NCBI GenBank assembly: GCA_017503645.1
Contig: JAFVSR010000006.1
Coordinates: forward strand, 1 to 42,395
DNA length: 42,395 nt
Reading direction: 5' to 3'
From: Bacteroidaceae bacterium
GTDB taxonomy: Bacteria; Bacteroidota; Bacteroidia; Bacteroidales; Bacteroidaceae
The notes below the pieces were generated by a model, which was not told the origin of the DNA, ran no database searches, and saw nothing but the letters and a program-made list of their open reading frames with translations. Both the position numbers and the translations under genes were made by a program. Shown piece by piece: positions 23,483 to 42,215 of the stretch (within the stretch, counting starts at the first letter, position 1; each line of letters opens with the position of its first letter).

Positions 23483-26400
23483 ATGAAAAAGTATTTACTA
23501 CTGCTCCTATGCATTATTGCAGGGCAAGCGACTATGCACGCACAGGGATTCCCCGAAGTGAGCAACGACGAAAGTACCAAATGGTACCTCATTCAGTTTA
23601 TGAACGGAGGCAAGGCTTTTACCGCATCGACAAGCGGCAGCGAGATAGCCGTTGCCGCAGCCACAGGAGCCGACGAGCAGCTGTGGAAGATAACAGGCGA
23701 CGAAACAAGCGGATATTCTTTCACAAACAAAAAGGGCTACACGCTCTATGTAAATTCTGCTGCACTGAACCAAAAGGTTTGTGCTGCAACCAATGCATCG
23801 GCAGGTGTAAAGACTTTCAAAATAAGCCCAACAGGCTACAGCACATATGCAGGCAGTTACGAGATACAACCTACAAGCAACACAAGCATTTCGATGAACC
23901 TGTGGGGCGGCCCCAACGATAACCGCGGCGTGGGCCTGTGGAACAGCAACAACGACCCCAACAACCCCGTTAAGTTTGTAGATGCCGACATCTTCGAGGC
24001 ACTTGGCAAAATATCTATAATCCCCTACCCTGCCGAACTCACCGTGGGGAGCGGGAAACTTGCGGTATCATCGCTCAACGCCATTACATATACAAGCGAC
24101 GATGTTCAAAAGTATGCCGAAGAGTTTGCCTCTATGCTTGCAAAGACATCGGGCAACACGCTCACAGTAAAGGAGAGCGGTGCCGAGGCGGCCGCAGGCG
24201 AAATATGGCTTGCCGTTGACGAAAACTTGCCTGCCGAGGGATATACTCTCAACGTAAATGCAAACGGAATAGAGATAAAGGCTGCCACAAAAGCCGGTTT
24301 CTTCTATGCCATACAAACATTGAAGCAGTTGCTTCCGCGCGACCTTTTCGGCAGCACACTCAACAGCGAGGCCGATTGGGAGATTCCTTGCGTGGCAATC
24401 GTCGACCAACCGCAGTTCGGCCACCGCGGATTTATGATGGACGTGGCACGCCACTTCTTCGACAAAGATGAAGTAAAAAAGGTGCTCGACATTATGGCGC
24501 TCTACAAGATGAACCGCCTGCACTGGCACCTCACCGACGACCAGGGCTGGCGCATTGAGATACCCGAATATCCATTGCTCACCGAGATTGGTGCAGTGCG
24601 TTCGGGCTCGTTCACAAGCCCCGGCGACGGCAGCAAGTTCTTCGACGACACAGAGTATGGTCGCGGGATGTATTTCACCCAGGATGACCTACGCGAAATT
24701 GTTGCCTACGCTGCCGAGCGCAACATAGAGATAATGCCCGAGATTGACCTCCCCGGCCATATGGTGGCAGCAGTGACATCGTACCCCGAACTCAGTTGCG
24801 ACCCCACCAAGGAGTATTCCGTACGAATAGATGGTGGCATCTCGCAAGATGTTCTCAACATCGGCAAAGACGAAACAATCGACTTCCTCAAATGCGTGCT
24901 CGACAATGTGGCAAACATATTCCCCTTCCCATACATACACATTGGCGGCGACGAGTGCCCCACCAACCAATGGCAGACAAACGAAGACTGCTTGCGCCGC
25001 GTACAAGAAGAGGGGCTTGCCGGTGTGCACGAGCTGCAGTCGTGGCTTGTCGAAGAGCTTGGCACATACCTCAAAGAGAAACACGGCAAGGACATCGTTG
25101 TATGGGACGAATTGCTTGCACACTGGACAAGCGACAACGCTGTGAAGCCCGTTATAATGGCTTGGAATAACCTTAATTTAACAGCCACAGCTGCAGACAA
25201 AGGGTTCAAGAGCATTGCAACACCATACTCACACGTGTATATCGACTTTATGCAGGTGGGCCCCGACAAGACAATCATTGACGAGCCATACTATGGCGGC
25301 TGGAGCGAGACAAATACCAACACATTGGAGGAGGCCTACTCGCTGAATCCCGCAGGCTCGCTTGGCGGGCGCGAGGAGTTCTGCCTTGGCGTACAGTGTA
25401 ACCTGTGGGCAGAGACACTCAACGACAACACCGAGCTTGAATACCAGTTGCTGCCACGTATGATTGCAGTAGCCGAAACAGGGTGGCTCCCCAGTAGCAA
25501 GAAGGAGTGGGGCGGCTTCTATCGTCGCCTGCAGAGCCACGACGAGATTCTCGACCTGCTTGGCTACACATACGCAAAGCACTATATTGAACCCAAGGAG
25601 TACAGCGACGTGGAAAAAGCGATTATGGAGGCCGAGGAGCTTCTTGAAAACAGCATAAACGGCGTGGGCTACCCCGAAGCGGAATACCGCGAGAGGCTAA
25701 GCACTGCACTCCATAATATTGAAGGCGACGACATAACAGAACTGACAGCCGCCATCGAAGCCTTCAAAAATGCACCCATCAAACAGCCCGAGGAGGGAAA
25801 GACCTACCAGATTGTTTCGGCATCTACATATTACAAACGCCAATACGAAGGCTCCACAATGTACCAAAGCAGCAACGGAGTGCGTTTCCACTACACCCCG
25901 CAGGTGGAGCCTGAGGAGCTATGGCAGTTCGAGGCAGCCGATGGTGGTTACATAATGAAGAACCTCTACAGCGGCAAGGCAATAACCTTGGGTGGCTACA
26001 ACACCGTGGTTACAACAGGCGACAACGGAACACCCGTAAGAATAGACAAGGCAACCATAGCCTCGCGCGATGTGACATTTGTTCCCGGCGCTGTAACTAT
26101 CTCGGCTGTTGATGGCTACGATGCAGCTATGACGGGCAGCGTAAAACGATTGAGCGCAGAACCGTCGGGCGATGTTTATGCAAAGGACGAGGCCGCACTC
26201 TGCTACAACGGCACCTGGAAGTTCGTTGAGGTAACCGACTTCACAGAACAGCTCGCAGGCCTTATAAACAAGTGCCGGATAACAATTTACACAGCAAAGC
26301 CCGGCAAGGTGGGACAACCCACCGAGGAGGCTCTCGATTACCTTCAGAAGGAGATTATAGAACCCGCCAACAAGATATTCGAGGCTGGCGCAGCTACCGA

Positions 26401-27007
26401 GGAGCAGTACAACGCATTCGTGGTACTCTACCACCAATTTATGATGATGCCGCGCACAACACTTGCCGAAACTATCGACACCGGTGTCTATTACTACATA
26501 CGCAACGCATACTTCACCGACAAATACGCAGCATACAGCAACAACCGTGTGGAGCCAAAGGCAAAGGGCACAGCCGACAGTTTCCTATGGAGCTTTGTGA
26601 AGAACAGCGACGGCACGGTATATATTTACAACAAAGCTAACGGAAAGGCTGCCTACATCGACAGCGATGCCATTGACCAGACCATCAAGGTGGGCAATGA
26701 GTATGCCTGGACACTGAAAGAGACAACCACCGACACAGGCAGCAAAGGCATTGCCATTGTTGCAGGCGACGGCGAGCACGGCTGGTACACCAACCCGAGC
26801 GCTTGGAGCTATCTGCTCACAAAGCCCTATACTTGGGGTGCAAGCGTGTGGACATTGGAGAAATCGACAGTGGAGGTTGAAACAGGTATCGAAGATATAA
26901 GAGATAATGTAGAACTCAAAGGTATATTCGACCTGCAGGGCCGCAAGGTTGAGCATCCCGCAAAGGGTATTTACATTATCGACGGCAACAAAGTGCTGGT
27001 AAAATAA
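23483..27007 (+). CDS. GH20 exported beta-N-acetylhexosaminidase, multidomain
   Basis: A 1174-residue protein with a signal peptide (about 1-21, ending MHAQ). Residues 30-168 look like a ricin-type beta-trefoil, 175-300 form the GH20b domain, and 310-690 are the catalytic barrel with RHFFDKDEVKKVLD, LHWHLTDDQGWR and the catalytic pair D490-E491 in HIGGDECP. Further trefoil-like and helical modules follow (about 700-1130). The final 40 residues (GIEDIRDNVE..., LQGRKV, GIYIIDGNKVLVK) resemble a short C-terminal sorting or anchoring tail. It removes terminal GlcNAc or GalNAc from glycans, with binding modules likely holding a polymer or glycoprotein. It is 12 bases ahead of the next glycosidase gene. 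Confidence 0.92.
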   Translation: MKKYLLLLLCIIAGQATMHAQGFPEVSNDESTKWYLIQFMNGGKAFTASTSGSEIAVAAATGADEQLWKITGDETSGYSFTNKKGYTLYVNSAALNQKVCAATNASAGVKTFKISPTGYSTYAGSYEIQPTSNTSISMNLWGGPNDNRGVGLWNSNNDPNNPVKFVDADIFEALGKISIIPYPAELTVGSGKLAVSSLNAITYTSDDVQKYAEEFASMLAKTSGNTLTVKESGAEAAAGEIWLAVDENLPAEGYTLNVNANGIEIKAATKAGFFYAIQTLKQLLPRDLFGSTLNSEADWEIPCVAIVDQPQFGHRGFMMDVARHFFDKDEVKKVLDIMALYKMNRLHWHLTDDQGWRIEIPEYPLLTEIGAVRSGSFTSPGDGSKFFDDTEYGRGMYFTQDDLREIVAYAAERNIEIMPEIDLPGHMVAAVTSYPELSCDPTKEYSVRIDGGISQDVLNIGKDETIDFLKCVLDNVANIFPFPYIHIGGDECPTNQWQTNEDCLRRVQEEGLAGVHELQSWLVEELGTYLKEKHGKDIVVWDELLAHWTSDNAVKPVIMAWNNLNLTATAADKGFKSIATPYSHVYIDFMQVGPDKTIIDEPYYGGWSETNTNTLEEAYSLNPAGSLGGREEFCLGVQCNLWAETLNDNTELEYQLLPRMIAVAETGWLPSSKKEWGGFYRRLQSHDEILDLLGYTYAKHYIEPKEYSDVEKAIMEAEELLENSINGVGYPEAEYRERLSTALHNIEGDDITELTAAIEAFKNAPIKQPEEGKTYQIVSASTYYKRQYEGSTMYQSSNGVRFHYTPQVEPEELWQFEAADGGYIMKNLYSGKAITLGGYNTVVTTGDNGTPVRIDKATIASRDVTFVPGAVTISAVDGYDAAMTGSVKRLSAEPSGDVYAKDEAALCYNGTWKFVEVTDFTEQLAGLINKCRITIYTAKPGKVGQPTEEALDYLQKEIIEPANKIFEAGAATEEQYNAFVVLYHQFMMMPRTTLAETIDTGVYYYIRNAYFTDKYAAYSNNRVEPKAKGTADSFLWSFVKNSDGTVYIYNKANGKAAYIDSDAIDQTIKVGNEYAWTLKETTTDTGSKGIAIVAGDGEHGWYTNPSAWSYLLTKPYTWGASVWTLEKSTVEVETGIEDIRDNVELKGIFDLQGRKVEHPAKGIYIIDGNKVLVK

Positions 27008-32062: not shown

Positions 32063-33601
32063 ATGTTGGTTAAGGTTTTTGCGGCAGCCCTTCAAGGAAT
32101 AGATGCCATACAGGTGACCATTGAGGTAAATGCCCTGCGAGGAATAAAGTTTTTCCTTGTGGGCCTGCCCGACAATGCTGTGAAGGAGAGCCACGAACGC
32201 ATAAACTCGGCATTCCAATACAACGGGCTGCGCTTCCCCGGCAAGCAGATTATTGTGAATATGGCACCCGCCGACATACGCAAGGAGGGCTCGGCATACG
32301 ACCTGCCCATTGCCATAGGAATACTTGCTGCCGACGAAAAGATATCAACCGAAAAACTCGATAAATACCTCATAATGGGCGAGCTTGGGCTCGACGGCGG
32401 ACTTATGCCCATAAAAGGCACCCTGCCCATTGCCATCAAGGCCAAGGAGCTTGGGTATAATGGTATAATAATACCCACAGGCAACGCAGCCGAGGCCGCC
32501 GTTGTAAACGGATTGGAGGTGTTCGCAGCCGACAACCTTATGCAGGTAATACGTTTCCTCAATGGCGAGGAGGAGATAACACCATACACCCTTGACAGCA
32601 GGGAAGATTTCTATTCAAAGCAGAGCACGTTCCCCTTCGACTTTAGCGAAGTACGCGGACAGGAGAGCGTGAAACGCGCATTCGAGGTGGCAGCGGCAGG
32701 CGGTCATAACCTGCTTATGATAGGCCCCCCGGGAAGCGGAAAATCGATGATGGCAAAACGCCTGCCCTCGATACTGCCGCCAATGAGCATAAACGAAAGC
32801 CTCGAAACCACCAAGATACACTCCGTGAGCGGCCAACTCAAAGGAGGAGCATCGCTCATCACGCAACGCCCCTTCCGCAGCCCACACCACACAATATCCT
32901 CCGTGGCCCTTGTGGGCGGTGGCGGCAACCCCAAGCCCGGCGAGATATCGCTGGCCCATAATGGTGTACTGTTCCTCGACGAGCTGCCCGAATTCAACCG
33001 CACCGTGCTCGAAGTTATGCGTCAGCCCTTAGAGGACCGCAAGATATGCGTGGCACGCGCCAATTACAAGGTGGAGTACCCCGCAAGCGTAATGTTCGTG
33101 GCTAGTATGAACCCCTGCCCCTGCGGCTACTACAACCACCCTACCAAGGCTTGCGTGTGCACCCCTGCCCAAATACAGCGATATATGGGTAAAATTTCAG
33201 GGCCGTTGCTCGACCGCATCGACCTGCAGATAGAGATTGTACCCGTGCCGTTCGAGAAAATTTCCGATGCACGCCCCGGTGAGCCCAGCGCTGCCATACG
33301 TGAGCGCGTGATAGCCGCCCGCAAAGTGCAGGAGGAGCGTTTCGCCCAAGAAGATGGCATCTACTGCAACGCACAAATGACACCCTCGCTCATTGCAAAA
33401 TACGCAACACTCGACGATCAGAGCCTCACTATGCTGAAAACCGCAATGGCACGCCTCAACCTCTCGGCCCGAGCCTACGACCGTATTCTCAAGGTAGCAC
33501 GCACCATTGCCGACCTCGATGCAAGTTCTAACATACAAAGCCACCACATAGCCGAGGCCATAGGCTACCGCAACCTCGACAGGGAGAGCTGGGGCGAGTG
33601 A
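32063..33601 (+). CDS. comM: ComM/YifB-family Mg-chelatase-like AAA+ ATPase
   Basis: A 512-residue protein of the YifB/ComM family. The N-terminal part (about 1-175) is a Lon-protease-like fold (FLVGLPDNAVKESHERINSA). The AAA+ core has Walker A GPPGSGKS near residue 221 and DELPEF as Walker B, and a Mg-chelatase C-terminal domain follows. In naturally competent bacteria ComM is a hexameric helicase that promotes branch migration during transformation. Whether this host is competent is not shown. A CxCGxxxHPxxxCxCxPxxxxxY zinc-like cluster (CPCGYYNHPTKACVCTPAQ) is typical of the family. Confidence 0.9.
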   Translation: MLVKVFAAALQGIDAIQVTIEVNALRGIKFFLVGLPDNAVKESHERINSAFQYNGLRFPGKQIIVNMAPADIRKEGSAYDLPIAIGILAADEKISTEKLDKYLIMGELGLDGGLMPIKGTLPIAIKAKELGYNGIIIPTGNAAEAAVVNGLEVFAADNLMQVIRFLNGEEEITPYTLDSREDFYSKQSTFPFDFSEVRGQESVKRAFEVAAAGGHNLLMIGPPGSGKSMMAKRLPSILPPMSINESLETTKIHSVSGQLKGGASLITQRPFRSPHHTISSVALVGGGGNPKPGEISLAHNGVLFLDELPEFNRTVLEVMRQPLEDRKICVARANYKVEYPASVMFVASMNPCPCGYYNHPTKACVCTPAQIQRYMGKISGPLLDRIDLQIEIVPVPFEKISDARPGEPSAAIRERVIAARKVQEERFAQEDGIYCNAQMTPSLIAKYATLDDQSLTMLKTAMARLNLSARAYDRILKVARTIADLDASSNIQSHHIAEAIGYRNLDRESWGE

Positions 33602-33645
33602 TTTCACATCAATACCGGATGGTGCAGCATTACCGCTTGCACAAT

Positions 33646-33676
33646 TTTGCAATATTCATATAATTTTGTAATTTTG
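33646..33676 (+). promoter_or_regulatory. Consensus promoter for the TPR-TIR operon
   Basis: TTTG at 33646-33649, a 19-base spacer and TAATTTTG at 33669-33676 form a clean Bacteroidetes promoter. A second overlapping TAATTTTG is at 33661-33668. Transcription should start near 33683, about 25 bases before the first gene. This marks the three-gene module as a unit independent of the typA operon. Confidence 0.7.
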
Positions 33677-33707
33677 CAAACGCTTTCTCGTTGAAAAACA
33701 AAATCAT

Positions 33708-36686
33708 ATGCAACACACTATCAAAAAAATAATAACCTGCATTTTTTTATGCATCCTCGTCTGTGGCGTGCAATCCCAAACGCAGCAGGGATACATTAAA
33801 ACCATAGGCCGCAAGGACAAGAAAGGCGAGCCGCTTGGCAACGTATCTATCCGCCTAAAAGGCGGGCACAACGCCGTGCTCAGCAACAGCAACGGAAAAT
33901 TCGCATTGGTGATGCACGGCAAGAAGGTGGGCGACTCCTACTCACTGCAGCAGGTGAGAAAGAGCGGCTACCAGTTGAACGATGCCGGTGTCATAGGGCG
34001 CAACTTCGCCTACTCCGACAAGGTGCCCCATACCATCGTTATGGTATCCACCGCACAGTTACAAAAGGACAAACAACGCATAGAGAGCAATGCCTACCGC
34101 GTAGCCGAAAAGAATTACGAAGAGAAGGTGGCCCTGCTGGAAAAACAGGTGAACGACAGCAGCATCACAATGAAGAGATATGAGGAGGAGTTGCTGTCGC
34201 TGCAGGAGAGCTTCGAAAAGTACCAGTTGATGATAGACGGCCTTGCCGACCACTATGCACATACCGACTACGACGACCTCACCGACAAGGAGCGCGAGAT
34301 AAACATATGCATAGAGGAGGGCAACCTTGAGCGTGCCGACTCGCTCATACACCAGTTGTTCAACCCTGTGGATATTCTAAAGCGCAACAAGGAGGCCATA
34401 GTGCAGATTGAGCAACAGTTGTCGCAGGCCAATGCCCTCATTGCAAGTGCCAATGCCGAGATGGCCAAGGTGCTGAAACAGCAGAAAAAGGAGGCCGAGT
34501 ATCTCTATAACCTATACACCATTGCGCTTGCCAAATTCGATAACGAGAAGGCCAAGTTCTACATAGAAACCCGCGCCGAGCTCGACTCCACGGTTGCCGA
34601 ATGGCAGTTCGATGCCGCCTACTACCTGCACAAGCAGAACCAATTCAAGGCCGCCAAACACTATTACACAAGGTCGCTCAATGCCAGCCGTGCCCTTGCA
34701 AAGGAGAACCCGCAGGCCAACGAACAGGGCATAGCATCCACCCTCAACAACCTCGCAAGCCTCTATGTGGACACACAGCAACACAACGACGGCGAGGCTG
34801 CCTACAAAGAGACTTTGGAGATATACCGCCGCCTTGCCCAAGAAGAGCCCGAGCTGCACGAGCCCGACGTAGCACTTATCCTCAACAACCTGGCACTGCT
34901 CTACATTGAGACAATGAGATACAGCGAGGCCGAGAATATGTGCAAAGAGGCATTGGAGATACGCCGAAGGCTTGCCACCGCAGATGCGCAATTATACGAG
35001 CCCTTTGTGGCAAACACACTCAACAACCTGGCACTGCTCTACTCCAACACACAACGCTACGACGAGAGTGAGCAGACCTACAAGGAGGCACTGCAAATAT
35101 ACCGTCGCCACGCCGAGAGCAACCCGCAGCAATACGAGCCCTATGTAGCTGTAACGCTCAACGCACTTGCCATCCTCTACTACAACACTATGCGTTTTGA
35201 AGAGAGCGAACAGATGTGCAAAGAGACACAGAACATACGCACCAAGTTCAACGACAAAAGCTCGCAAAGCAACGACCCCAATGTGGCCACCACGCTCAAC
35301 AACCTTGCCACCTTCTACTACAACACCCACCGCTACAAGGAGAGCGAGGCTATGTACAAAGAGGCACAGGCAATATACAGGCACCTGGCCAAAGAGAACC
35401 CGCAGGTGTATGAGCCATACATAGCAATGACACTGAACAACCTGGGAGGCGTATATTCCGACACCAGACGTTTCGAAGAGAGTGAGAAGGCCTACAAAGA
35501 GGCCCTCGAGATGCGTAAAAGATTCGTTCTCGACGATTCACTGGCCTACTGGCCCGACGTGGCGCGCACGCTCAACAACATAGCATCGCTATACTTCGAC
35601 ACCAGACGATACAAAGAGAGCACCGAAACATACAAGGAGGCGCTGGAGATACGCAGGAAGTTAGTAAGGGAGAACCCGCAGGCCTATCGCCCGGATGTGG
35701 CAATGACACTCAACAACCTCACCAACCTGTACCACGCCACCAAGCAATATACCGAGAGCGAGAACAGCGGCAAAGAGGCACTCCAGATATATTACGAGCT
35801 TGCCAAAGAGAACCCGCAGCTGCACGAGCCCGCTGTGGCCTTCACGCTCAACAACCTGGCATCCATCTACTACCGCACCGCCAAATTTGCCGAGGCCGAA
35901 GAAAAATTCAAGGAGGCAATTGTCGTGTACAAGAAACTTGCCGCGGCCGATGCACAAAAGTACAATGCCGACGTTGCACGCACGGTGAGCAACCTGGCAT
36001 CGCTCTACTCCGACACGAAACGATATGCCGAAAGCGAAGCGCTCTACCGCGAAGCATTGGAGATGCGCCAAAAGCTCGCCGCCGAAAAGCCCGACCTCTA
36101 CGAGCAGTCTGTGGCCATCACACACTACAATATGGGCCTGCTGTTCCTGCGCAGCCAGCAGTACAAGAAAGGCATAGTAGCATTCGAAGGTGCCTTTGGG
36201 CTCTACAGTAAGCTCGCCGCCAAGGAGCCGCTTTTGCAGCAGCACTACACCAACTCGCTTAAATGGCTGGTGCAGCTATACAAGAACGAGGAGGAGATTA
36301 CAAAGGGATACGATGCCTATGAGGAGTATATGCCCATCATAAAGCAGAACTTCGAAAAGCACCCCGAACTATACAAAACCGAGTACATAAAGGCGCTTGG
36401 CTACCACACATCGCAATGCCTCATTATGGACCAGTTTGCAAAGGCCGAGCAATACGCACGCCTGGAGGCCGAGATAAACCCCGGTAATCTGCAGATATAC
36501 CGCGACCTTGCAATAAGCCTCATACTGCAAGAGCGCTATGCCGAGGCCGAGGAGATATATATCACCTACAGGCCCCGCCTGAAGGAGGAGTTCAAAGCCG
36601 ACCTCAAGAAATACAAGAAACTTAAGAAAATAACCAAGACACATAAGAACGGATTACGAAGAATAAACCTTATACTCAATGACTGA
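33708..36686 (+). CDS. Exported protein with beta-sandwich, coiled coil and eleven 46-residue TPR-type repeats
   Basis: A 992-residue protein. A signal peptide (about 1-23) is followed by a small carboxypeptidase-regulatory-like beta domain (28-113, with PLGNVSIRLKGG at 42-53). Next come a charged helical/coiled-coil region (115-275, with DKQRIESNAYRVAEKNY at 121-137) and one partial helix pair. Eleven tandem repeats then occupy residues 342-847, each exactly 46 long with the pattern VAxTLNNLAxLYxxTxRYxESExxYKEALEI. They resemble kinesin-light-chain-type TPRs. A helical C-terminal part (848-992) ends the protein. It should act in the periplasm as a protein-binding scaffold. It overlaps the TIR gene by eight bases, and its N-terminal half is paralogous to the third gene of the operon. 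Function is unknown. Confidence 0.85.
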   Translation: MQHTIKKIITCIFLCILVCGVQSQTQQGYIKTIGRKDKKGEPLGNVSIRLKGGHNAVLSNSNGKFALVMHGKKVGDSYSLQQVRKSGYQLNDAGVIGRNFAYSDKVPHTIVMVSTAQLQKDKQRIESNAYRVAEKNYEEKVALLEKQVNDSSITMKRYEEELLSLQESFEKYQLMIDGLADHYAHTDYDDLTDKEREINICIEEGNLERADSLIHQLFNPVDILKRNKEAIVQIEQQLSQANALIASANAEMAKVLKQQKKEAEYLYNLYTIALAKFDNEKAKFYIETRAELDSTVAEWQFDAAYYLHKQNQFKAAKHYYTRSLNASRALAKENPQANEQGIASTLNNLASLYVDTQQHNDGEAAYKETLEIYRRLAQEEPELHEPDVALILNNLALLYIETMRYSEAENMCKEALEIRRRLATADAQLYEPFVANTLNNLALLYSNTQRYDESEQTYKEALQIYRRHAESNPQQYEPYVAVTLNALAILYYNTMRFEESEQMCKETQNIRTKFNDKSSQSNDPNVATTLNNLATFYYNTHRYKESEAMYKEAQAIYRHLAKENPQVYEPYIAMTLNNLGGVYSDTRRFEESEKAYKEALEMRKRFVLDDSLAYWPDVARTLNNIASLYFDTRRYKESTETYKEALEIRRKLVRENPQAYRPDVAMTLNNLTNLYHATKQYTESENSGKEALQIYYELAKENPQLHEPAVAFTLNNLASIYYRTAKFAEAEEKFKEAIVVYKKLAAADAQKYNADVARTVSNLASLYSDTKRYAESEALYREALEMRQKLAAEKPDLYEQSVAITHYNMGLLFLRSQQYKKGIVAFEGAFGLYSKLAAKEPLLQQHYTNSLKWLVQLYKNEEEITKGYDAYEEYMPIIKQNFEKHPELYKTEYIKALGYHTSQCLIMDQFAKAEQYARLEAEINPGNLQIYRDLAISLILQERYAEAEEIYITYRPRLKEEFKADLKKYKKLKKITKTHKNGLRRINLILND
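34731..36248 (+). repeat. Eleven in-frame 138-bp repeats within the TPR gene
   Basis: The repeats run without insertion or deletion. They encode the 46-residue TPR-type units at residues 342-847, with the strongest conservation in the TLNNLA and KEALEI parts. Several neighbouring units share DNA as well as protein, so unit number could change by recombination. Confidence 0.85.
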
Positions 36687-37821
36687 CACTAAAGAGAAAT
36701 ACAAGTATTACGCATTTATTTCGTACAACTCAAAAGATACGAAATGGGGGAAAACCATACAGCGCAAGCTCGAGGGCTACCGCCTGCCCGCCAAGCTGTG
36801 TGCGCAGCACGGCTGGGAGCGTAACCCCATAAAACCGGTATTCTTTGCACCCACCGACATACAGCCCGGAGGGCTCACCGTGGAGTTGCAGGAGCGTTTG
36901 CGTGCATCGCGCCACCTTATTGTGATATGTTCGCCCAACTCGGCAAAGTCGGAATGGGTGGGTAAGGAGATTGAATACTTCCACTCGCTTGGCCGCACCA
37001 AGAACATACACTTTTTCATTGTCGATGGCGAGCCACACAGCGGTAACCCCAAGACCGAGTGTTTCAACCCCATAATAGACAAACTTGGCATCCCCGAGAT
37101 TCTTGGTGCCAACATACACGAGAAGAATGTAAGCAGCTGGCCCTGGATAAGGAAAGAGCGTGCCTATGTGCAGCTCATAACCAAGTTGCTCGACATTGAG
37201 TTCGACGCTATATGGCAGCGCCACAAACGACAGATGGCCGAGCTTTTCGGTATGTGGGTGGTGGGAATAGGCGTTATCATATCGATACTCCTCCTCGAGT
37301 GGTATTCGAGCCAGCCCGTGGACATAGAGGTGAAACTGAGCGAGGCCTCGTACATAAACAACGAACTGCCACCGCTAAAGGATGCCGTAGTTACAATATC
37401 GCTCGACAACGAAACCAAGAGCGACACCATTAAATCCATCACCCACGGCACTATGTTCAAGAACATACCGGCCAAGTTCATCGGGCAGGAGGTTAGGTTC
37501 ACGGTGAAGTGCGACGATTTCCACGACACAGATACCACCCTGGTGCTTTCAGAGCTAAACACAATAGAGATACACCGCAATGCAGAGGTATATGGCAACA
37601 TCCATTTCCGCCTATGGGATGTAAAGAATGAGTGCCCCCTTGCCAACACCGCAATAAGCATCGATGGCACCGAGGCCGTGTCGGACGAAGAGGGCAACGT
37701 GGCGCTGTTTATGCCTATAGAAAAGCAGAAGGAGCACTACACCATAACCACGCCATTGAGCAACGACATATATACCATATATATGCCTTGCGGCGACTAC
37801 AATGCAATACTCATAGAATAA
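36679..37821 (+). CDS. Membrane-anchored TIR-domain protein with periplasmic beta domains
   Basis: A 380-residue protein. Residues 9-175 form a TIR domain of the TIR_2 type, with AFISYNSKDTKWG at 12-24, PVFFAPTDIQPGG at 53-65 and SEWVGKEIEYF at 91-101. E97 fits the catalytic glutamate of NAD-cleaving TIR domains. A single hydrophobic segment at about 191-207 follows the basic stretch RHKRQ, so the TIR part should be cytoplasmic and the rest periplasmic. The periplasmic region is beta-rich, and its last domain (304-374, with PLANTAISIDG at 320-330 and DEEGN at 336-340) is carboxypeptidase-regulatory-like. It overlaps the TPR gene by eight bases and is 13 bases ahead of the third gene. Likely a signalling or immune effector; NADase activity is inferred, not shown. 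Confidence 0.85.
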   Translation: MTDTKEKYKYYAFISYNSKDTKWGKTIQRKLEGYRLPAKLCAQHGWERNPIKPVFFAPTDIQPGGLTVELQERLRASRHLIVICSPNSAKSEWVGKEIEYFHSLGRTKNIHFFIVDGEPHSGNPKTECFNPIIDKLGIPEILGANIHEKNVSSWPWIRKERAYVQLITKLLDIEFDAIWQRHKRQMAELFGMWVVGIGVIISILLLEWYSSQPVDIEVKLSEASYINNELPPLKDAVVTISLDNETKSDTIKSITHGTMFKNIPAKFIGQEVRFTVKCDDFHDTDTTLVLSELNTIEIHRNAEVYGNIHFRLWDVKNECPLANTAISIDGTEAVSDEEGNVALFMPIEKQKEHYTITTPLSNDIYTIYMPCGDYNAILIE

Positions 37822-37834
37822 CCTTGCAACACCT

Positions 37835-38806
37835 ATGAGAAGAACAATACTATTCACACTGCTTGCCCTGCTGCTTGCCGCGCCCCCCTGCCGCGCACAG
37901 CACGAACAGCGCGGACTGGTGAGAACCATTGGCCGCCCCAACAGCCCCGGAACACCCATTGCAAACGTCACCATACGGGTGCAAGGGCTGTTCAACGCCG
38001 TTATGACCTCAAAGGATGGAGTATTCAGCATATCGGCACCCGACAAAAGCGACGGCGATGCACTTGTTCTGCAGAGCATCAGAAAGAACGGCTACGAGCT
38101 GAAGGACAAAAGCCTTATAGGGCGCGAACTGGTGTTTTCGTCGCAAGTACCCATTGAGATAATAATGGTGGACCTCAAACAGCTCGAGGCCGACAAGCAG
38201 CGCATCGAGGACAACGCCTACCGTGTGGCCGAGGAGAACTACCAAAAGAGGCTCAAGGAGCTGGAGCAGCAGATGAAGGAGAGGCAGGTGACCACCGACC
38301 AGTACCGCAGAGAGATAAGCGCCCTGCAGAACAACTACGAAAAATATCTGTCGCTCATTGGAGATATGGCCGAGCGTTACGCACGTGCCGACTACGACGA
38401 GATGGACTCGATAGACCGGGAAATAAACATAAGTATCGAGAGCGGCGACCTTGAACGTGCCGACTCGCTCATACACACGGTATTCAACCCCGAAACGGTG
38501 CTCCAGCGCAACCGCGCCGCCAAAGAGGAGATAAGGAAGCGAATAGAGTTCGCCCAAAAGGTGATAGACAAGGCCAATGCCGACAAAGAGGCCATACGCC
38601 GCGACACCGAGTATGCCGAGCGCGTTGCGGTGCTCAGCGAGAAACTCGCAGCCGAATATTGCGCCATAGAGGATTGGGAGAAGGCCGGGGAGAGCCTCAA
38701 CACCTCGTTGGAGATAAGAAGACTGCTCCACGGCGACGACGACAAGCGCGTAAAAGATATTTTAGAGAAGATATCGGAAATAGACAAAAACAAGAGCGCC
38801 CTGTAG
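37835..38806 (+). CDS. Exported beta-sandwich/coiled-coil protein, short paralogue of the TPR protein
   Basis: A 323-residue protein with a signal peptide (about 1-22, ending CRAQ). A beta domain (27-112, with PIANVTIRVQG at 41-51) and a long charged helical region (115-270) align along their length with residues 28-260 of the protein at 33708. Shared blocks include DKQRIEDNAYRVAEENY (120-136) and DLERADSLIH (205-214). Only one TPR-like helix pair (268-297) remains where the other protein has eleven units. It is probably a periplasmic partner or competitor of the long form. It ends the TIR operon, just before a new promoter. Confidence 0.8.
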   Translation: MRRTILFTLLALLLAAPPCRAQHEQRGLVRTIGRPNSPGTPIANVTIRVQGLFNAVMTSKDGVFSISAPDKSDGDALVLQSIRKNGYELKDKSLIGRELVFSSQVPIEIIMVDLKQLEADKQRIEDNAYRVAEENYQKRLKELEQQMKERQVTTDQYRREISALQNNYEKYLSLIGDMAERYARADYDEMDSIDREINISIESGDLERADSLIHTVFNPETVLQRNRAAKEEIRKRIEFAQKVIDKANADKEAIRRDTEYAERVAVLSEKLAAEYCAIEDWEKAGESLNTSLEIRRLLHGDDDKRVKDILEKISEIDKNKSAL

Positions 38807-38816
38807 ATTTTATTTG

Positions 38817-38824
38817 TAATTTTG
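38817..38824 (+). promoter_or_regulatory. -7 promoter box for LOG-family gene
   Basis: TAATTTTG lies 25 bases before the ATG at 38849 and 11 bases after the TIR operon's last stop codon. It supports that start over an in-frame ATG at 38822, which would overlap the box. No -33 match was found. Confidence 0.45.
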
Positions 38825-38848
38825 CAGCGTTTCACTAAAGAGAGAGTT

Positions 38849-39436
38849 ATGCAGGAGATAAAAAGCATATGCGTGTATTGTGCCTCGAGCAGCAAGGTAG
38901 ATGCCTGCTACTCCGATGCCGCATACACACTTGGCACCATCATAGGCAGGGAGGGTATGAGCCTCATCACCGGCGGCGGTTGCCAAGGCCTTATGCGCAG
39001 TGTGGAGGATGGCACGCTCGATAGCGGCGGCAAGGCCATTGGGGTAATCCCGAAATTTATGGTGGAACAGGAGTGGCACCACAAGGGGTTGAGCGAGCTG
39101 CGCATAACCAAGGATATGCACGAGCGCAAGCAGACTATGGCAGCCCTTTCCGATGCCGTGATAGCTCTGCCCGGCGGCTGCGGCACTATGGAGGAGCTAT
39201 GTGAGATTATCACCTGGAAACAGTTGGGGCTTTACTTCAACCCCATTGTCATACTAAACATAAACGGCTACTACGACCACCTCATAAAGCAGCTGGAGCA
39301 CGCCATAGAGGAGCACTTTATGGGCAAGATTCACGGTGAAATATGGCAAGTGGCCACCACCCCCGCCCGGGCCATACAGTTGGTTAAGGAGACACCCCGC
39401 TGGAACTGCGAGGTGCGTAAATATGCAGCACTATGA
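38849..39436 (+). CDS. LOG-family (TIGR00730) nucleoside 5'-monophosphate phosphoribohydrolase
   Basis: A 195-residue Rossmann-fold protein. The family signatures are GGGCQGLM (42-49), the ERK triplet near 92-94 and PGGCGTMEE (108-116), which contains the catalytic glutamate. Relatives split the base from nucleotides such as AMP or cytokinin ribotides; in bacteria the role is probably nucleotide salvage or clean-up rather than hormone synthesis. Its stop codon overlaps the DUF4271 start (ATGA). Confidence 0.9.
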   Translation: MQEIKSICVYCASSSKVDACYSDAAYTLGTIIGREGMSLITGGGCQGLMRSVEDGTLDSGGKAIGVIPKFMVEQEWHHKGLSELRITKDMHERKQTMAALSDAVIALPGGCGTMEELCEIITWKQLGLYFNPIVILNINGYYDHLIKQLEHAIEEHFMGKIHGEIWQVATTPARAIQLVKETPRWNCEVRKYAAL

Positions 39437-41380: not shown

Positions 41381-41583
41381 AAATACTCATACTGCCCATA
41401 CGCTTCTACCAAAAGTGTATATCGCCCCTCACACCCCCGTCTTGCCGTTTCACACCCACCTGTTCGCAATACGCAGTGGAGGCCATAACCAAGCACGGCC
41501 CCATAAAAGGGCTCTACCTTGCTGTGCGCCGCCTGCTGCGCTGTCACCCGTGGGGAGGCTCAGGATACGACCCTGTACCATAA
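41362..41583 (+). CDS. yidD: Membrane protein insertion efficiency factor YidD
   Basis: A 73-residue protein matching the whole YidD family: [34 protein letters not shown], and the C-terminal [14 protein letters not shown]. It is thought to help YidC-mediated insertion at the inner membrane. It overlaps rnpA at its start and shares a TAATG junction with the TatD-family gene. Confidence 0.95.
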
Positions 41584-42215
41584 TGCTCATAGACCTTCAC
41601 ACACACCACACGACTCGGGAGCCGCACATCACAAGCATTATAAGCAGCGGCACCACACCCACCACCGATGGAACCCCCTGCTCGGTGGGCATACATCCGT
41701 GGCACATAACCACCGCTTGGGAAACGGTAATGCAGCAGGTGCGCACGGCCGCACCTGCAAGCAACGTGGTTGCCATAGGTGAGTGCGGCATAGACAAACT
41801 TAAAGGCCCCGCCGACATAGCCCTGCAAATAGAGGTGCTTGCCGCGCACGCCGCCCTTGCCGAGGAGGTGCAAAAACCGCTCATTCTGCACTGCGTAAAG
41901 GGGCAAGAGGAGATAATGAAACTACGCCGCCAAATGGCGGCAAAACAGGCCTGGATAATACACGGATTCCGCGGCAAGCCGACACAAGCCCTGCAACTGA
42001 CAGGCGCAGGCTTCTATCTCTCCTATGGCGAAAGGTACAACAGCGACAGCCTTGCCGCCACCCCTGCAGATAGACTTTTCCTTGAAACAGACACAAGCAG
42101 CACGCCTATCTACGATATATACAAAGAGGCGGCAAAGCATCTTTCTATGAGCATTGAGGAGTTGGCCACTGTCATTGCGCAGAATTTAAGCCGTTGCAAT
42201 ATCAACATAATATAA
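41583..42215 (+). CDS. TatD-family metal-dependent hydrolase
   Basis: A 210-residue protein, somewhat short for TatD. The metal-binding motifs are visible: DLHTHH at the N-terminus, GECGID in the middle, LILHCVKG, WIIHGFRG and the late LETDTSS. TatD proteins are DNases or other phosphohydrolases. The start at 41583 overlaps the yidD stop (TAATG) and gives the conserved N-terminus, so longer in-frame starts in the yidD region are rejected. It closes the hemD-rnpA-yidD neighbourhood. Confidence 0.86.
   Translation: MLIDLHTHHTTREPHITSIISSGTTPTTDGTPCSVGIHPWHITTAWETVMQQVRTAAPASNVVAIGECGIDKLKGPADIALQIEVLAAHAALAEEVQKPLILHCVKGQEEIMKLRRQMAAKQAWIIHGFRGKPTQALQLTGAGFYLSYGERYNSDSLAATPADRLFLETDTSSTPIYDIYKEAAKHLSMSIEELATVIAQNLSRCNINII

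Follow-up and report, generated by a model that had tools for sequence, protein, structure and literature searches.

A conserved operon of a gut bacterium pairs a membrane TIR protein with exported partners, and RyR-domain neighbours in its relatives hint at a possible receptor relaying events beyond the inner membrane into the cell

How might a bacterial TIR protein be coupled to events beyond the inner membrane? The question is raised by a three-gene operon of Bacteroidaceae bacterium, a gut bacterium (assembly GCA_017503645.1, contig JAFVSR010000006.1), of which positions 1 to 42,395 of the forward strand were analyzed (the window; the genome itself is G000). The operon lies on the + strand and comprises gene A (33708..36686), encoding a 992-residue exported TPR protein with signal peptide, beta-sandwich, coiled coil, and TPR superhelix; gene T (36679..37821), encoding 380 residues with a TIR domain, a membrane helix, and two beta-domains; and gene S (37835..38806), encoding a 323-residue exported, short paralogue of the N-terminal domain of A. 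Assignments rest on open reading frames (ORFs), with Pfam and structure models for A and T and alignment for S. A first-pass annotation had proposed that periplasmic proteins here detect an envelope event and gate a cytoplasmic TIR domain; predicted topology, co-inheritance, and the TIR fold agree with that proposal, whereas gating and an immune purpose are parts that we only infer. The operon is real and conserved. In its relatives it often neighbours genes for RyR-domain proteins, which are related to the animal ryanodine receptor (RyR); this hints at a receptor with its sensing part beyond the inner membrane and an inward signal carried by a molecule derived from nicotinamide adenine dinucleotide (NAD).

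The genes are as tightly packed as first described: T starts at 36679 and A ends at 36686, an 8-base overlap, and 13 bases separate the end of T (37821) from the start of S (37835). Relative to the closest relative (G013), the ratio of nonsynonymous to synonymous substitution rates (dN/dS) was 0.08 for A, 0.11 for T, and 0.19 for S in this one genome pair; because these values show purifying selection, A, T, and S are genes rather than chance ORFs. A strict search for TTTG-N19-TAATTTTG on the + strand of 33501-38900 returned one match only, starting exactly at 33646 (33646..33676, +), which is our promoter candidate, on what we take to be the Bacteroidetes-type consensus. A scan for an E. coli-type sigma-70 promoter was without a match at 33646, and the Bacteroidetes-type element was taken instead; the consensus promoter claimed earlier thus stands in the Bacteroidetes-type sense but not in the sigma-70 sense.

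The TIR domain of T (36700..37200, +; residues 8-174) is followed by a single membrane helix (37240..37296, +; residues 188-206), with the more positively charged side toward the TIR domain, and by a predicted periplasmic part consisting of two modeled beta-domains (37315..37818, +; residues 213-380). Three Pfam profiles exceeded their cut-offs (TIR_2, 42 bits against 28; ThsB_TIR, 31.9 against 21.2; TIR, 22.5 against 21.3), and residues 188-206 form the one hydrophobic segment, in line with the earlier description of a TIR protein with one membrane segment. The structure model had a mean predicted local distance difference test score (pLDDT) of 89.7 and a predicted template modeling score (pTM) of 0.58, so that the arrangement of the domains is uncertain; compared with known structures, its TIR domain adopts a TIR fold, as had been anticipated, and fold and family profile both place T in the TIR superfamily. 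The beta-domains gave weak Foldseek matches to Gram-positive pilin domains. T is predicted to lie with its TIR domain inside. A putative catalytic residue, Glu97, lies in the motif WVGKEI, its catalytic position being assigned through what we take to be the SARM1 motif.

The N-domain of A (33780..34532, +) was delimited by alignment and the secondary structure of the model as a beta-sandwich (residues 25-114) plus a coiled coil (residues 115-275), and alignment identified it as the part common to S and to the A-type partners of relatives. The TPR array (34542..36527, +; about residues 279-940, in 42-residue units by Pfam, model, and fold match) scored 234 bits against TPR_10 and 214 bits against TPR_12, and the model of A (mean pLDDT 89.4, pTM 0.70) matched many TPR folds, including KLC1 (7ai4_A, template modeling score TMt 0.74). 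Signal peptide and TPR profiles bear out the first-pass reading of A as an exported TPR-repeat protein, with a predicted periplasmic site. The corresponding reading of S as a short exported paralogue of A holds for the N-terminal part of A (42% identity over S residues 3-262) but does not extend to the TPR part; the TPR_12 match of S (18.3 bits) is under the cut-off, so "TPR paralogue" is too strong a label. Against PADLOC, A was without a match and S matched at chance level only (E 0.024).

Is this arrangement peculiar to one genome? A search for T covered 150 genomes including its own, 20 of which had any match; within the genus, 12 full-length copies were found in 9 of 44 genomes. Co-occurrence, on which the initial proposal depended, was confirmed: a strong A/S N-domain match was present in all 9 of the 9 genus genomes that have a full-length T, each reaching 370 bits or more, and in 0/35 without it, where the best score was 33.5 bits. 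Eighty-three T loci were then considered, namely the best 80 of 261 confirmed, the window, a paralogue on contig C66 of the same genome, and L044; the 80 come mostly from metagenome-assembled genomes (MAGs) of herbivore-gut Bacteroidales, and some repeat genus genomes and hence are not independent. An A-type gene stood beside T at 77 of the 83, in 76 cases within a same-strand cluster and in L083 just outside it; in three of the 76 (L084, L091, and L135) a contig end leaves just a TPR fragment, which was assigned on similarity. The remaining six (L065, L068, L085, L119, L124, and L130) have strong matches to an A-type gene elsewhere in the genome, and the L119 locus is cut by a contig end. The median distance between A and T was 6 nucleotides, with at most 60 nucleotides in 73 of 74 adjacent pairs and an overlap in 27, and gene orders included A-T-S, S-A-T, A-T, A-A-T, A-T-A, and T-A. 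TPR and TIR are encoded by separate genes in the window and in 13 full-length loci, consistent with the earlier remark that the parts are split between proteins. The window operon has a full-length TIR-membrane-helix-beta protein and an N-domain partner, and so belongs to the A-T(-S) family by its definition; TIR-only relatives, which are devoid of the membrane and beta part, had no A partner in the loci examined and were excluded from the counts.

Across these loci, the TPR repeat type varies while the N-domain is recognizable in all, and a short S-like A-type protein was seen by eye in 17 of the 83, making S optional. A crude signal-peptide test was passed by 101 of 103 A/S proteins; a single hydrophobic helix was found in 82 of 83 T proteins, and the TIR side is the more positively charged one, again in 82 of 83. 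Glu97 is invariant in all 79 aligned T proteins, the alignment leaving out four of the 83 (L061, L088, L119, and L129) for being overlong or having an open start. In comparison with G013, residues 1-180 of T are 97.8% identical and residues 213-300 are 79.5% identical; within T, the TIR domain evolves most slowly (dN/dS 0.037). Conservation is likewise highest in the N-domains of A and S (97.5-98.6%), and the TPR array (90.1%), residues 841-992 of A (86.8%), the signal peptides (83.3%), and S residues 263-323 (80.3%) are less so. The highest segment values of dN/dS were those of the S signal peptide (0.57) and the last 61 residues of S (0.56). A fast-diversifying sensor was considered and rejected, as several segments outpace the N-domain and the TIR domain, yet none reaches a dN/dS of 0.6 in this one genome pair, for which reason positive selection is not claimed.

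What might T signal to? RyR-domain proteins are encoded at 16 of the 83 T loci, large membrane proteins belonging to two related families at 14 and 15, and a RyR or large RCK/RyR-family membrane protein is present in cis at 34 (including short members of the second family). Other genes of the T clusters encode MscS-like proteins (8/83), leucine-rich repeat (LRR)/caspase proteins (11/83), a second TIR protein (7/83), PrsW (4/83), CHAT proteins (4/83), and exported phosphoesterases (8/83). In the window's own genome, an operon-like run on contig C26 (L142:8289-11752) encodes an RCK/RyR membrane protein, a PrsW protease, and a RyR protein (116 bits, PF02026) with no TIR gene alongside; a second RyR gene (L141:8865-9320, contig C36) encodes a RyR domain and then, by eye, a zinc-ribbon-like stretch. 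Within the genus, RyR was found in 8/9 genomes with T versus 8/35 without (p 5e-4), and the RCK/RyR protein was found in 8/9 versus 6/35 (p 1.3e-4), both p values being uncorrected for phylogeny; the two sets were compiled by hand, G008 being counted for RyR although it scores under the family cut-off and partial matches, G040 for one, being counted for RCK/RyR. An A-type gene is divergent from an adjacent RCK/RyR gene in G035, with a RyR gene then following. In G014, which is 75% complete and has comM next to LOG and no operon, the C26-type site is without an RCK/RyR gene, and PrsW matched at residues 29-138 only, near a contig end.

The RCK/RyR proteins were aligned as 16 full-length sequences, 12-30% identical to the own-genome copy apart from one at 70%. 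They have 2-4 N-terminal hydrophobic segments, and Slo-like_RCK matches were obtained in 6 of the 16 (best 7.6e-6). At the C-terminus they can be aligned to the stand-alone RyR proteins (96.5% probability), and a profile from the alignment ranked RyR structures first in a search of solved structures, where a single RCK/RyR protein had given chance-level matches only. According to a 2026 preprint, phage RyR-domain proteins bind or cleave 2' and 3' cyclic ADP-ribose (2'cADPR and 3'cADPR), with H75, W78, H100, and D117 as ligand residues (PMC13232231). The same H, W, H, D quartet at identical spacing was found in 17 of 18 stand-alone RyR proteins, compared with 1 of 785 other locus proteins; it reads H33, W36, H58, and D75 in the C26 protein, and the exception is the own-genome C36 copy, from which the second His is absent. 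The matching quartet of the RCK/RyR proteins (H697, W700, H752, and D772) is invariant in 16/16. Beyond gene order, co-inheritance, predicted topology, the modeled TIR fold, and the optional insertion site, the analysis shows linkage of RyR and RCK/RyR genes to T at some of the loci and conserved RyR ligand residues.

With these parts in hand, we consider it an evenly balanced proposition that T is a periplasm-gated membrane TIR enzyme, an NAD hydrolase (NADase) or cyclase, whose product acts on RyR-domain effectors in an envelope-spanning receptor. Once A and S have reached the periplasm, the N-domain common to both may dock on or cluster the beta-domains of T, and the TPR superhelix of A may offer a ligand-binding surface; T would span the inner membrane, its TIR domain facing the cytoplasm. 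Phage, an envelope toxin, or cell-wall damage, as the envelope event, would alter the A/S-T assembly and so gather the TIR domains, steps suggested by topology and co-inheritance. Homology and gene linkage point to what might follow: NAD+ cleavage or cyclization would be switched on, an ADP-ribose-type product would be read or removed by RyR-domain proteins, and RCK-like membrane proteins with C-terminal RyR domains could open as ion channels. The putative readers would be supplied in cis in some T operons and in trans, with the PrsW protease of contig C26, in the window's genome. Enzymatic activity, signal, gating, channel function, and immune purpose are all presumptive in this scheme. Its most explicit form, a two-part Toll-like receptor in which periplasmic solenoids gate a TIR enzyme and an ADP-ribose-type product is read by RyR-domain ion channels, is offered tentatively as a possibility that we would not bet on. 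If true, TIR, a cyclic-ADPR-like signal, and a RyR channel would form one bacterial pathway, paralleling two separate animal pathways.

Several observations weigh against a RyR-coupled TIR enzyme. TLR2, which is not known to be an NADase, aligns a Glu at the position of Glu97, so this residue alone proves nothing about activity. T matched PADLOC ThsB models over only about 40 residues (best E 9.2e-8), its match to the SAVED-TIR model (E 0.0014) ran via the TIR part, and six RyR, RCK/RyR, PrsW, and MscS proteins had no PADLOC match. The window operon has no RyR/RCK gene, nor do 49 of the 83 T loci in cis; conversely, RyR and RCK/RyR genes occur without T in 8 and 6, respectively, of the 35 T-negative genus genomes. 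In G013, T and an RCK/RyR protein were matched and RyR was not; in G015, T and RyR were matched and an RCK/RyR protein was not. The genus association ignores both phylogeny and MAG incompleteness. The RCK assignment of the own-genome copy is weak (Slo-like_RCK, 19.7 bits against a cut-off of 24), a RyR match at E 0.05 was obtained in 8 of 16 RCK/RyR proteins taken singly, and accessory families were named from one Pfam-scanned representative each.

Among other explanations, the best placed, though in our judgment improbable, is that T is a direct effector: an NADase tethered to the membrane, which would deplete NAD+ and bring about death or arrest of the cell once A and S activate it, with no second messenger and with RyR genes as mere neighbours in the same defence-like gene pool. 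The TIR fold, the invariant Glu97, and the loci without a RyR or RCK gene in cis, the window's included, would suit such an enzyme; the cis linkage at 34/83 loci, the trans association in the genus, and the conserved ligand quartet argue against it. Lower still in probability is a non-enzymatic TIR scaffold, in which TIR-TIR assembly relays periplasmic input to a nearby TIR, caspase, CHAT, or PrsW protein. TLR2 was the only match when the PDB was searched by sequence with T, and each of these candidate recipients has its share of T loci (second TIR, 7; LRR/caspase, 11; CHAT, 4; PrsW, 4), but against a scaffold stand the presence of Glu97 in 79/79 aligned proteins and the slow evolution of the TIR domain relative to the rest of T, and the RyR linkage points toward a nucleotide product.

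We rate at a similarly low level a housekeeping sensor of envelope stress or wall remodeling, with no role in immunity. Exported TPR and beta-sandwich proteins as partners, ordinary purifying selection, and ten flanking proteins without a known defence gene (E 1e-5), a weak QatD match excepted, are compatible with it. Distribution speaks against it, as full-length T is patchy in the genus (9/44) and, among 395 phylum-sampled genomes (E 1e-30), was found in its own genome only, two others having the TIR part only. So do the optional character of the insert at comM and LOG, the second copy with its P22-like portal neighbour, and partner swapping with caspase, CHAT, and TIR genes, which we regard as typical of conflict systems. 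That A, T, and S are unrelated neighbours by accident has next to no probability and is refuted at the level of linkage by the 9/9 versus 0/35 co-inheritance and the tight spacing over 83 loci.

The insertion site is bordered upstream by a comM/Mg-chelatase-like gene (32063..33601, +; identified by Pfam and comM loci of the genus) and downstream by a LOG-type gene (38822..39436, +; Pfam Lysine_decarbox, SLOG cluster4 match), which has its own TAATTTTG element at 38817 and is judged outside the operon. comM is present in 44 genomes, and 30 comM loci were looked at. At 11 of the 30 (for example, in G014) the operon is missing and about 0.45 kb at most separates LOG from comM, and in G035 (1/30) the distance is 1.4 kb; an A gene was at comM in four (G000, G013, G031, and G036), a T of another subtype in one (G005), and the other 13 had neither LOG nor any of the three operon genes in the stretch examined, which contig ends cut short in some. 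A further T is beside comM in G015 (L042). Because comM and LOG are close neighbours without the operon at 11/30 loci, the operon is an optional insert, and LOG, which its SLOG-cluster match had made a candidate operon member, is ruled out as one. The second own-genome A-T pair (L003:645-3984, contig C66) encodes a 736-residue TPR protein and a 384-residue TIR-membrane protein with a 26-base ORF overlap; 37 bases beyond its end lies a P22-like portal gene in convergent orientation, among other phage-type genes. Carriage of the operon by phages or plasmids was rejected: IMG/VR gave 18 pattern hits with 0 confirmed, phage records gave no relative, and 9 plasmid records had partial matches, none covering 80%.

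How does the operon compare with known systems? In common with Thoeris, T has a ThsB_TIR match over the Pfam cut-off, and there may be an ADPR-type product with possible readers encoded nearby in some relatives; unlike in Thoeris, T is anchored in the membrane, its partners are TPR proteins that are exported, and the candidate readers are RyR-domain proteins. ThsA is absent next to T, whose neighbours are comM and LOG, and the ten flanking proteins contain no PADLOC ThsA; a genome-wide STALD search for ThsA had no match, but the controls were silent too, so it is uninformative. Nor was a CD-NTase or Argonaute partner found in A, T, S, or the ten flanking proteins (E 1e-5), upholding the earlier observation that partner genes of known TIR systems are not nearby. 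In staphylococcal Thoeris, ThsB1/ThsB2 are reported to bind the phage capsid protein (PMC11312562); to us this suggests sensing inside the infected cell. The operon is a TIR system and is not Thoeris as defined.

Toll-like receptors offer a functional analogy only, with a non-cytoplasmic repeat solenoid, one membrane helix, and a cytoplasmic TIR domain; here, however, the parts are separate proteins, the repeats are TPR rather than LRR, the TIR domain is N-terminal, and beta-domains lie next to the membrane. As solenoid, membrane helix, and TIR are not in one polypeptide, the operon is not a Toll-like receptor. Phage RyDEP/PF02026 RyR proteins share the H, W, H, D spacing (PMC13232231), but the genes described here belong to bacteria and either adjoin a TIR gene or share a genome with one, and RCK-like membrane proteins also end in a related domain. 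In predicted NTP-dependent conflict systems, too, operons can swap modules of the TIR, CHAT/caspase-like, TPR, and membrane kinds, but their vWA-MoxR and GTPase-centered cores, as given in the accessible text, are not among the neighbours here (PMC7159879). SARM1/TIR-1 NADases are regulated by ARM/SAM parts that the T system lacks; its own additional parts are membrane and periplasmic ones. A further report describes NADase TIR domains from bacteria of the human gut, and its main text does not use "transmembrane," "TPR," "tetratricopeptide," "operon," or "periplasm" (PMC9092222). A periplasmic TPR-TIR pair is not described in the available parts of PMC7159879, PMC9503650, or PMC9092222, and neither such a pair nor a RyR/RCK protein was the subject of any paper listed by searches of an open-access library, judged by title and abstract opening.

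With a TIR protein inherited together with exported solenoid proteins, sensing would take place beyond the inner membrane, much as it does in Toll-like receptors, and one could ask directly how envelope events turn into NAD-derived signals. The RyR and RCK/RyR linkage suggests a role on the host side, open to testing, for domains whose binding and cleavage of cyclic-ADPR signals have only just been reported, in phages (PMC13232231).

Further observations concern individual loci. The TPR repeats of L003 are nearly identical to one another by appearance, and L043 (G013) has a T gene and a convergent 674-residue gene in the place matching the L003 portal gene. An exported protein with BspA-type LRR and caspase parts is encoded directly upstream of T at L133:4388-5905 and L127:4422-5927, the family being named from a Pfam scan of the L127 copy. 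L049:4928-11582 (G084) holds three TIR-matching genes in about 7 kb, one encoding a 1135-residue protein; the sequence examined around them contains no A-type gene. In the window, the weak PADLOC QatD match (E 9.3e-7) falls in the gene at 41415-42215; as we take QatD to be TatD-like, this gene is probably a housekeeping hydrolase. A 1174-residue ORF at 23483-27007 has no NCBIfam match at 1e-10, and the genes around it match beta-N-acetylglucosaminidase and glucosidase/trehalase models below cut-off.

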